From: Thermoanaerobaculia bacterium
GTDB taxonomy: Bacteria; Acidobacteriota; Thermoanaerobaculia; Thermoanaerobaculales; Sulfomarinibacteraceae
Direction: 5' to 3'
Assembly: GCA_027061805.1 (NCBI GenBank)
Contig: JAMOWA010000068.1
Location: 1 to 64,000 of the forward strand
DNA: 64,000 nucleotides
In this document: in pieces, positions 1-50,350 of the stretch
Layout of the letters: each line of letters starts with the position of its first letter
How positions within the stretch are numbered: the stretch's first letter is position 1
Notes under the pieces: generated by a model
Database searches by the model: none
Told to the model about the DNA's origin: nothing
The model's input: only the letters and a program-made list of their open reading frames with translations
Position numbers and translations under genes: made by a program

Positions 1-83
1 CGGTGGTCGGCGGCGGTGGTCGGCGGCGGTGGTCGGCGGCGGTGGTCGGCGGCGGTGGTCGGCGGCGGTGGTCGGCGGCGGTC
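1..83. repeat. 13-bp GC-rich tandem array
   Basis: The unit CGGTGGTCGGCGG is repeated six times from base 1 to base 78, with a partial seventh copy to 83; the copies look identical and the array probably starts before the window. It runs directly into the left arm of the palindrome at 80-221. It has no credible coding content. Confidence 0.95.
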
Positions 84-221
84 ACCTCCGGGTCGTTCTG
101 TCATGAGAGGCCTAGCTTCCGGGCGCCCCGGTGTCAAGGGTGAACCTCCGGCCGCTGCGCGGCCCCTGACACCGGGGCGCCCGGAAGCTGAAGGGCCTCC
201 ATGAACGACCCGGAGGTGACC
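80..221 (+). repeat. Three-tier nested palindrome in front of an S23-type gene
   Basis: The outer arms are GGTCACCTCCGGGTCGTT (80-97) and its exact reverse complement (204-221). The middle arms (114-136 and 167-189) are perfect 23-bp complements. The centre holds GGCCGC-tgc-GCGGCC (150-164). The right outer arm contains the GGAGGT Shine-Dalgarno of the following gene and ends at the base before its ATG (222). Transcribed, it would fold into one long hairpin hiding the ribosome binding site. The same architecture, with different arm sequences, recurs at 49882-50033 before the other S23-type gene. Role unknown: translational control and a mobile-DNA end are both possible. Confidence 0.9.
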
Positions 222-581
222 ATGACCGACTCCCTTCCAGCCAACCACCCCCTTGATGCCGTCAACCTCGCCATGGAAGCCGCCAGCATCGCACTCGCCT
301 TGGCTCGCAGGGTTCCCGCACCATTGCGGCCCGTGGCAGACCAGCTCATCAGGGCCGTCAGTTCGGTGCCCGCCAACCTCGCCGAGGGTCACGGCCGAAC
401 AGGCCGCGACAGGCTCCACCACTGGCGCATCGCCTACGCATCCGCAAAGGAAGCCGATATCCACCTCAGGCTCCTCCTCGGCGCCGGTGCGGTGGATGCA
501 GGGCAAGCCAGCACTGCTCTTGAGCTCCTGGATCGGAGCCGCGGCGCCACGTGGAGGCTCCTCCACCCGCCTGCCCGGTGA
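222..581 (+). CDS. S23-type four-helix-bundle protein
   Basis: 119 residues, all helical by composition. The core contains LRPVADQLIRAVSSVPANLAEG followed by a GRTGRD turn, the hallmark of the 23S rRNA intervening-sequence / four-helix-bundle family (usual length about 115-125). Its function is unknown; relatives include the Avd accessory protein of diversity-generating retroelements. I chose ATG 222 because GGAGGT sits at the right distance; an in-frame ATG at 201 would add seven residues and lies inside the palindrome arm. The second copy in the window (49531-49881) shares the SVPAN(L/I)AEG and GRDR..HWR.AY.SAKE..(I/V)HL motifs. A MITE-like repeat follows immediately. Confidence 0.85.
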   Translation: MTDSLPANHPLDAVNLAMEAASIALALARRVPAPLRPVADQLIRAVSSVPANLAEGHGRTGRDRLHHWRIAYASAKEADIHLRLLLGAGAVDAGQASTALELLDRSRGATWRLLHPPAR

Positions 582-39634: not shown

Positions 39635-40017
39635 GTCCGCCGGGGTGCCGAGGACAAGACAGCCGGCACGGAGGCCGTCGTGCTGTTGACCGCCTTCGGG
39701 CCGGGATCCATGGAGCGCGGGCTTCGGCCCGCATCCCCCCGGGTCGCAGGAGGATGGGGACGGATGATGGTCCCTGCGGACGGAAGTCCATGCTCCAGAA
39801 TATCGGCCTCCACGGCGTGGACGGACCTCACGACTTCGAGGCAACACAGACGCCGATGCCGTTGCATCTCCATGCACCCGAGCATGTTGGGGAGTTGCGG
39901 CAGACACGGAGCTTGCGGGCCGCCCGTCCCCCTGTCAACGCCTCGGCCACGTCCTCACGGACGCATCCGCATGACTCGGGACCAGCGCGGAGCGCCGTTC
40001 CTTCCCTGTCTCGGACT
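39635..40017. other. Intergenic, nothing recognised
   Basis: About 380 bases before MITE-like copy D. I found no convincing frame, RNA gene or repeat. The following 40214-40414, upstream of the superoxide reductase gene, is likewise empty except for the ribosome binding site. Confidence 0.5.
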
Positions 40018-40213
40018 CTCACCTGAGCCTGTTGCAAGAGTCCTGGATCGGGAAGGATTCCCGCGGCATCGGCCCCCACCCACCCGGGAAAAGGAACCAC
40101 GGATGACACGGATTGATCGGATCAGGAAGAAGATAGAAAAACTCCGGATATACGTTGGATTCCACGCCAGGCCGATGGACATGACCTTCAGAGAGTTCTG
40201 CAAGCGGCTCACC
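40018..40213 (-). repeat. MITE-like intergenic repeat, copy D (inverted, complete)
   Basis: Same element as copies A-C in the opposite orientation. Its ends read CACCTGAGCCTGTTGCAAG on the left and CTGCAAGCGGCTCACC on the right, which are the two terminal motifs of copy C reversed. The inner string CACGGATTGATCGGATC is the reverse complement of the shared core. Confidence 0.82.
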
Positions 40214-49380: not shown

Positions 49381-49530
49381 CCCCCCCACCCACCCCGGTG
49401 AAGAGGTGAGGAGGTGAAGACGTCCCCCGCCCACCCGGGGAGGGTTTCGTCCATGGCCCGTGTCGGTGTCCGTGTCCGCGTCCGTGCCGGTGTCCGCGTC
49501 GGTGCCCGGGTCACGGCCGGAGCCGGGGCC
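49381..49530 (+). repeat. Nonamer/hexamer composite repeat, left of the second S23-type locus
   Basis: Begins CCCCCCCACCCACCCCGGTG, then GTGAAGACG-type nonamers, the CGTCCCCCGCCCACCCGGGG string and GTGTCCGTG-type units. Bases 49381-49474 are nearly identical, in the same orientation, to 50076-50170 on the other side of the S23-type gene. Confidence 0.82.
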
Positions 49531-49881
49531 TCACCCCCTCTGGATCATCCGCCACAGCATGGCGCGGACCTCGTCGAGGAGCGCCAGGGCACGCCGAGTG
49601 CGGGCCGCGTCCACCGAGCCGGATGCCAGGAGGAGCTGGAGATGGACGTCCAGCTCCTTCGCCGAGCCGTACGCCACACGCCAGTGGTAGCTCCGGTCCC
49701 TCCCGGAACGTCCCTCGCCCTCGGCGATGTTGGCGGGAACCGACGCGGCGGCCCGCACCACCTGGTCGGACAGGGACCGGAGCGGCGCCTTCACCGCAGC
49801 GGCCAGTGCGAGCGCGATCCCGGCGGCCTCGAGGGCCTTCGCCAGGGCCGGGGGCTTCGATCCGTGGAGCGCGTGGGGCAT
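49531..49881 (-). CDS. S23-type four-helix-bundle protein (second copy)
   Basis: 116 residues, homologous to the protein at 222-581: LRSLSDQVVRAAASVPANIAEG, GRSGRDR..HWRVAYGSAKELDVHLQLLL and a C-terminal LLDEVRAMLWRMIQ helix. ATG 49881 has GGGAGGA in front; ATG 49902 would add MNEREET, paralleling MNDPEVT in the first copy, and lies in the palindrome arm. No rRNA gene is nearby. The gene plus palindrome is bracketed by near-identical direct repeats. Function of the family is not established. Confidence 0.85.
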   Translation of the reverse strand: MPHALHGSKPPALAKALEAAGIALALAAAVKAPLRSLSDQVVRAAASVPANIAEGEGRSGRDRSYHWRVAYGSAKELDVHLQLLLASGSVDAARTRRALALLDEVRAMLWRMIQRG

Positions 49882-50033
49882 GGTTTCCTCCCGTTCGTTC
49901 ATGCCATCAAGAAAGCCCCCGGGCCGCCCGGAGTCAGGGGTCGCGCAGCGACCGGCCGCAGGCCGGCGTGCCCTTGACGCCGGGCGGGTCCGGGCGCCAT
50001 CTCCCCCATCACAGGAACGAACGGGAGGAAACC
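49882..50033 (-). repeat. Three-tier nested palindrome in front of the second S23-type gene
   Basis: Outer arms GGTTTCCTCCCGTTCGTT (49882-49899) and its exact complement (50016-50033); middle arms CCGCCCGGAGTCA (49924-49936) and TGACGCCGGGCGG (49975-49987), one mismatch; centre with two small hairpins, GTCGC-gca-GCGAC and CCGGCC-gca-GGCCGG. As at 80-221, the outer arm contains the Shine-Dalgarno of the S23-type gene and ends against its ATG. Arm sequences differ from the first locus but the middle arms share a TGACnCCGGGCG core. Confidence 0.9.
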
Positions 50034-50075: not shown

Positions 50076-50350
50076 GCCCCCCCACCCGCCCGGTGAAAAG
50101 GTGAGGGGGGTGAAGACGTCCCCCGCCCACCCGGGGAGGGCTTCGTTCAGGGCCCGTGTCGGTGTCCGTGACGGTGTCCGGGTCCGTGTCCGGGTCCCCT
50201 GCCCCTCTTCTGCTCTGCACCACTGCTCCCCTGCTCCCCTGCTCTCCTGCCCGTGTCCGTGACGGTGTCCGTGACAGTGACTCGGTCCCCTGCCCCCCCT
50301 CTCCTCTGCGCCCCTGCGCCCCTGCTCCCCTGCCCGTGCCCGTGTCAGGG
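50076..50350 (+). repeat. Nonamer/hexamer composite repeat, right of the second S23-type locus
   Basis: Bases 50076-50170 repeat 49381-49474 with only a handful of differences. The rest is GTGTCCGTGACG-type units and pyrimidine-rich stretches (CCCCTGCTCCCCTGC-like) running up to the stop of the next minus-strand gene. Confidence 0.82.

Follow-up and report, generated by a model that had tools for sequence, protein, structure and literature searches.

A three-tier hairpin and S23 gene unit, multiplied within one acidobacterial family, as a new form of stem-loop-borne S23 element

Three-tier hairpins followed by S23 genes form a multi-copy unit that is real and under selection, and that represents a new form of the stem-loop-borne S23 element. 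In the reading that we favour, and to which as a whole we give about an even chance, hairpin and S23 gene make up one ~0.55-kb unit that was multiplied and spread through a bacterial family and whose protein recognises its own stem. The S23/IVP proteins are a large protein family of unknown function, one relative of which, Avd, is essential in diversity-generating retroelements (DGRs). To our knowledge, a link between S23/IVP proteins and a self-complementary stem has been known only from rRNA insertions.

Two such units are present in the window, by which we mean the whole stretch of 64,000 nucleotides analysed (Table 1). The first-pass annotation had placed both S23 genes of the window behind nested palindromes, and these are real: the RNA folds reach -123.3 kcal/mol for hairpin 1 and -107.5 kcal/mol for hairpin 2, with z-scores of -13.7 and -9.2, respectively, and 0 of 200 shuffles fold equally well. 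These z-scores, together with the covariation relative to shuffles described below, exclude chance or GC background as the origin of the palindromes. Some of the dimensions first given require correction, as the outer arm, reported as 18 bp, measures 19 bp at both loci, and instead of ending one base before the ATG it abuts the ATG (222; 49881), and even runs on through the equivalent ATG in many sister copies. The TGACnCCGGGCG core, described as shared by the middle arms, is present, but it is only part of a near-invariant core, GTCAAGGG...CC(T/C)TGAC. The Rfam scan of the window detects no rRNA, both S23 loci being intergenic, and the hairpins match no family at gathering score, thus no described cis-regulatory RNA or riboswitch family; the matches below threshold are to unrelated hairpins, mostly microRNAs, and a known RNA family was rejected as their identity.

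Table 1. Positions of the hairpins, S23 genes and repeat arrays of the two units in the window.
Feature	Position	Strand	Basis or remark
Short tandem repeat array 5' of hairpin 1, unit ~CGGTGGTCGGCGG	1..79	+	Start of contig
Three-tier hairpin, S23 unit 1	80..221	+	Own fold and 47-sequence covariation
Outer arms, hairpin 1	80-98 / 203-221	+	19 bp, perfect
Middle arms, hairpin 1	114-140 / 163-189	+	27 nt, 96%
Near-invariant core GTCAAGGG, 5' strand of middle stem	133..140	+	47-hairpin alignment
Inner hairpin, hairpin 1	150-164	+	
3' strand pairing with the core, CCCCTGAC (most copies: CCCTTGAC)	163..170	+	
S23 / 23S_rRNA_IVP (PF05635) gene 1	201..581	+	In-frame ATGs at 201 (in 3' outer arm) and 222
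Degenerate hexamer array (GTGTCC/GTCCGT type), 3' of S23 gene 2	49459..49530		
S23 gene 2	49531..49902	-	In-frame ATGs at 49902 (inside arm) and 49881
Three-tier hairpin, S23 unit 2	49882..50033	-	Own fold
Outer arms, hairpin 2	49882-49900 / 50015-50033	-	19 bp
Middle arms, hairpin 2	about 49914-49940 / 49971-49998	-	
Degenerate hexamer array, 5' of hairpin 2	50150..50260		

With two in-frame ATGs per gene, one of them inside the 3' arm, the true start codon of the S23 genes (201 or 222; 49902 or 49881) is uncertain. Nearly all sister copies retain the upstream in-frame ATG (201; 49902), with which the 3' outer arm begins; in sister copy L008 a CTG replaces the downstream ATG, and sister copy L058 is without the upstream one. 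If translated from the first ATG, the 3' arm would read MNDPEVTM at locus 1 and MNEREETM at locus 2, and it may code for the first seven residues of the S23 protein, whose first 12 residues are predicted to be disordered in the AlphaFold2 model.

Both genes match PF05635 (E 4e-12 and 46.7 bits for gene 1, E 7e-16 and 58.9 bits for gene 2; curated cut-off 33.8) as well as TIGR02436, “four helix bundle protein” (45.9 and 63.8 bits; cut-off 24). AlphaFold2 predicts a confident four-helix bundle (pLDDT 90), for which Foldseek returns as the closest structures the S23 proteins 2gsc and 2rld (TM 0.73-0.76 by query, best E 2e-5), followed by the DGR Avd proteins 4dwl and 8ub7, and at the sequence level the match to 2gsc has an E of 1.5e-24. 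By this predicted structure, the hairpin-linked protein is shown to have the S23/Avd fold. Homology between PF05635 and Avd is considered likely (PMC10053308), and by that homology the proteins of the hairpin subfamily may bind nucleic acid.

The genome from which the window derives (G000; 3.1 Mb, 68 contigs) encodes 25 PF05635 proteins, of which 22 are of the short type and accompanied by a hairpin, and 3, on contig C56, are canonical and without one. A covariance model recognises 29 hairpin places in this genome, 22 with an S23 gene, 3 with a broken S23 gene (contigs C26, C65, and C59), interrupted in all three by one common insert, and 4 at contig ends; none of the 29 is free-standing, the candidates all being contig ends or broken S23 units. 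The proposed tie between the hairpin and the S23 genes is thus borne out, every hairpin having a gene, a remnant or a contig end beside it. The hairpin copies fall into four sequence subfamilies, and the loci that hairpin and gene occupy together in the genome are unrelated. At one of them (L016, G000:C64:27416-27509) the middle stem is largely deleted, with the outer arm and the S23 gene intact. Many contigs of this genome terminate at S23 units, and degenerate hexamer arrays of the GTGTCC/CAGGGT type occupy many of its intergenic regions, whether an S23 unit is present there or not.

The covariance model also matches 15 of 19 genomes of the same family, versus 3 of 40 others, those 3 being weak matches; one of the 15, in G004, is a different hairpin without an S23 gene. 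Named relatives belong to Thermoanaerobaculales / Holophagae of the Acidobacteriota, and with respect to viral carriage no relative was found in IMG/VR. In a tree that includes four canonical S23 proteins, all hairpin-bearing proteins make up one clade (100/100), expanded within genomes. The hairpin and S23 unit is essentially limited to one acidobacterial family. The hairpin of G004 (L268, G004:C52:5106-5226) is another long one, with a GTCAAGG...CCTTGAC core, no S23 gene, and a putative integrase gene nearby.

Pairing, more than sequence, is what these copies conserve, as had been proposed from the two loci of the window. For 47 hairpins from several genera, aligned by sequence and not by structure, the covariation score is 0.352 versus 0.107 in shuffles, paired cells make up 93.9% versus 79.2%, and cells changed on both sides number 359 versus 106; shifting the partner by one to three columns reduces pairing to 30-45%. 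Changes on both sides are seen in 35 of the 56 pairs. Within the subfamilies of this genome, four-fold sites have diverged by 26-42% and hairpin loops by 20-40%, whereas the figures for the outer arms and the variable middle stem are 2-6% and 2-8%, respectively. Hairpin and protein distances are correlated (Mantel r 0.58, 0 of 2000 permutations). The S23 genes show a dN/dS of 0.10-0.17 within the genome, and of 0.09-0.18 with two relatives added, with dS among copies within subfamilies of 0.3-1.2; the copies are old, yet still under purifying selection. Such dS values speak against a recent burst, and the unit is therefore possibly fixed at present, having been mobile only formerly.

As to mobility, we have several examples of units that were copied or differ in occupancy. 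Tandem duplicates of the S23 unit occur on C57 and in G007. Three composites (L245, L246, and L247, on contigs C26, C65, and C59 of G000) carry a common foreign repeat module inserted in the S23 gene and share about 340-550 bp of common sequence between unrelated outer flanks, and a broken S23 composite has multiplied at three loci. One gene pair, whose members in the congener G014 are 48 bp apart with a terminator-like hairpin between them, is separated in G010 by an S23 unit between hexamer arrays, divided between two contigs, and in G002 by a gap of 384 bp with a different repeat but without an S23 unit. At a second site G002 possesses the unit and G010 does not, although a neighbouring gene is missing from G010 as well, and for the flanks of G010:C52 no alignable flanks were found in congeners for an empty-site comparison. 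In the comparison of empty sites, advocated in the first-pass annotation as a way to locate insertion boundaries, occupancy differs among G014, G010, and G002, but, tandem arrays flanking the copies, neither a boundary nor a target-site duplication can be read. Dispersal, presence or absence between congeners, and the multiplied broken composite together indicate mobile or once-mobile behaviour, and the S23 unit behaves as such an element. The earlier suggestion of a mobile hairpin element that uses or carries the S23 protein agrees with this in that the unit is dispersed and multiplied, but within this genome the hairpin is never found without either an S23 gene, intact or as a remnant, or a contig end next to it.

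Two candidate partners in movement were rejected. Spread driven by a reverse transcriptase within this genome is one, as no RVT_1 match is found in it or in most of its hairpin-rich relatives. The two Y1_Tnp genes of the genome (C48 and C68:88674) lie away from all hairpin places, and no Y1 transposase match is found in G006, which has many hairpins, so that Y1/RAYT as a dedicated partner is uncorrelated with hairpin copies. On the minus strand of the window, at 39908-40019, there is an Rfam match to Group II intron D1D4-6 (66.6 bits), likely a remnant or a chance match.

What the stem may do can be considered in terms of the reading that we favour. By homology, the S23 protein would assemble from four-helix bundles into a pentamer and, like Avd, bind structured nucleic acid. 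It would recognise its own long stem, either as RNA or in the single-stranded DNA that replication exposes, while the catalytic copying step would be performed by something else, a host or transposon enzyme. Since the Shine-Dalgarno sequence and the two candidate start codons are all contained in the 3' arm, folding of the transcript would restrain S23 translation, and the same stem would provide autogenous control, such self-restraint being likely a side effect of arm position. The unit would then be a differently built form of the stem-loop S23 element of the 23S rRNA intervening sequences (IVSs), the gene lying elsewhere in the loop and here behind the arms. Binding, repression and present-day movement of the unit are what we infer.

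A rival explanation, which we regard as rather unlikely, sees in the hairpin a cis-acting RNA leader only, belonging to an old paralogous family without mobility of its own and hiding the ribosome binding site, for autogenous control by S23 or for RNase III processing. A covarying structure does lie beside the translation start, and, as first claimed, the Shine-Dalgarno sequence is inside the outer arm: in the main subfamilies the 3' arm covers it along with the start codons even though the arm sequences differ, making it plausible, judging by arm position, that the ribosome binding site is hidden. The purifying selection on the copies, their long-past divergence, and the constant company of hairpin and gene also fit a leader. 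However, a leader does not account for dispersed presence and absence or for multiplied broken composites, the 3' arm is itself part of an open frame and has an in-frame ATG where it begins, and a fold of about -100 kcal/mol far exceeds what is needed to hide a ribosome binding site. Wobble pairs, moreover, are not favoured. A constraint on nothing but the coding-strand RNA should make G.U better tolerated than A.C, and the opposite is observed on the transcribed strand, with 16 G.T (the coding-strand wobble) versus 44 A.C among isolated stem mismatches and 12 versus 23 in comparisons within genomes, counts that are indicative, as they come from related sequences and as alignment noise is above zero. 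Of the RNA switch envisaged in the first-pass annotation, the position of the arm over the ribosome binding site stands, but the lack of wobble preference, the ambiguous start and a fold near -100 kcal/mol, with which switching is hard to picture, do not favour it, and more than a switch the hairpin would seem to resemble a powerful brake, a stem bound by protein or a substrate of RNase III.

The mismatch pattern, indicative as it is, allows a role as single-stranded DNA, or template-switch correction alongside selection. It is unlikely, in our view, that the stem is a DNA-level recognition hairpin that acts as single-stranded DNA, in the manner of REP/IS200 ends or attC sites, with a transposase or recombinase moving the unit in trans and with translational effects incidental. 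The near-strict Watson-Crick compensation with few wobbles, the multiplied composites, the two Y1 transposase genes of the genome, and the TAGC at the foot of the middle stem, which recalls the GTAG tag of REPs (PMC3733652), would all agree with it, but the hairpins, unlike REPs, are never free-standing, the Y1 genes do not adjoin them, G006 is rich in hairpins without a Y1 match, and the placement of the arm is linked to the gene's start codon. Considerably less probable is the possibility that the arms are kept complementary by a mutational process, template switching that corrects quasi-palindromes, and not by selection on structure. While close paralogues do show paired changes with few intermediates (in the G010 set, four two-sided changes and no wobble), with 83 two-sided versus 35 G.T or A.C changes overall, arm divergence of 2-8% is far below the neutral 26-42%, the internal loop is left open, without pairing, in every copy, some mismatches (for example the A.C at columns 67/127) persist in several lineages, and the length and position of the outer arm are fixed.

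The inverted flanks of canonical S23 genes are possibly the more general discovery. In a sample of database hits of uneven phylogenetic weight (loci L026-L051, L175-L194, and L300-L328), short tandem repeats, mostly heptamers, are found beside canonical S23 genes of many phyla in 33 of 55 upstream and 26 of 52 downstream gaps, versus 8 of 62 other gaps in those loci. Units of equal length are present on the two sides in 32 cases, and of these 19 have the same unit inverted and 1 has it in the same orientation. The repeats AGGGATC (L028), CGGGAAA (L048), and AGGGCAGT (L192) each stand opposite their own reverse complement across the S23 gene. The complementarity of 5' and 3' flanks has a mean score of 23.1 within a locus versus 9.1 between loci (0 of 5000 permutations), and inverted complementary flanks above threshold are present at 40 of 69 canonical loci versus 0 of 130 control positions drawn from the same loci (p 1.4e-23); in a further control with neighbouring ORFs, 1 of 10 is above threshold. 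The wider genome-scan set, mostly from other phyla, has such flanks at 11 of 17 loci. This means that S23 genes outside rRNA usually occupy the loop of a long stem, like that of the 23S IVS, and the comparison with 23S rRNA intervening sequences drawn in the first-pass annotation is apt, given the inverted complementary flanks at those 40 of 69 loci. Around the S23 genes of the hairpin subfamily, inverted arrays are absent, the flanking arrays in this genome run in the same direction, and the whole stem is 5' of the gene. No report of S23 genes linked to tandem or inverted repeats outside rRNA was found in the open-access literature. Canonical S23 genes of Rhizobiales look inserted just after the stop codons of upstream genes, presumably directly behind respiratory-complex genes (L178, L182, and L190) and glutamine-synthetase-like genes (L186 and L192).

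Overall, the hairpins described here and the complementary repeats in other phyla suggest that the S23 protein family travels with its own stem-loop. We would tentatively go further, to a generalisation that is possible though on balance doubtful, in which the S23/IVP proteins, rather than being ribosomal, supply the protein half of very widespread stem-loop elements, each protein recognising its own long stem, and in which many intergenic heptamer repeats are by-products of such elements. If this is true, in most phyla the stem would consist of inverted heptamer arrays on both sides of the gene, in the IVSs of rRNA helix extensions, and here of a three-tier hairpin ahead of the gene. A lineage possessing many natural variants of a protein and its cognate stem would permit a direct assay of what S23 proteins bind, and the inverted-repeat rule around S23 genes outside rRNA would offer a route to how such elements and heptamer arrays arise.

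Among known systems, DGRs have in Avd the same four-helix-bundle fold (PDB 4dwl, 8ub7), but differ in that no reverse transcriptase gene is detected in this genome. The REPs and REPtrons, GTAG repeats with RAYT transposases (PMC3733652), likewise are conserved multi-copy hairpins tied to a gene, with TAG(C) at the hairpin foot, whereas the hairpin of the window is of about 150 nt and three tiers, always accompanies an S23 gene or remnant, and has no RAYT associated, the S23 gene being without a transposase fold. The heptamer repeats of bacteria (TAACTGA, PMC4679880) are intergenic arrays like those beside canonical S23 genes; no S23 link is drawn in that work, while here the arrays are inverted pairs around the gene. 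The 23S rRNA IVSs of Coxiella and Leptospira (PMC4990558) encode the same protein family, have long complementary ends that form a stem of tens of base pairs (28 bp in Coxiella, with the S23 ORF in the loop), and are viewed as selfish and possibly mobile. They differ in being inserted in the 23S rRNA gene, while the units of the window are intergenic and of a kind present in many copies per genome; the Coxiella S23p is apparently not made (PMC4990558), whereas a strong Shine-Dalgarno sequence is inside the arm here; and their ORF is between the arms, whereas here both arms are 5' of the gene.
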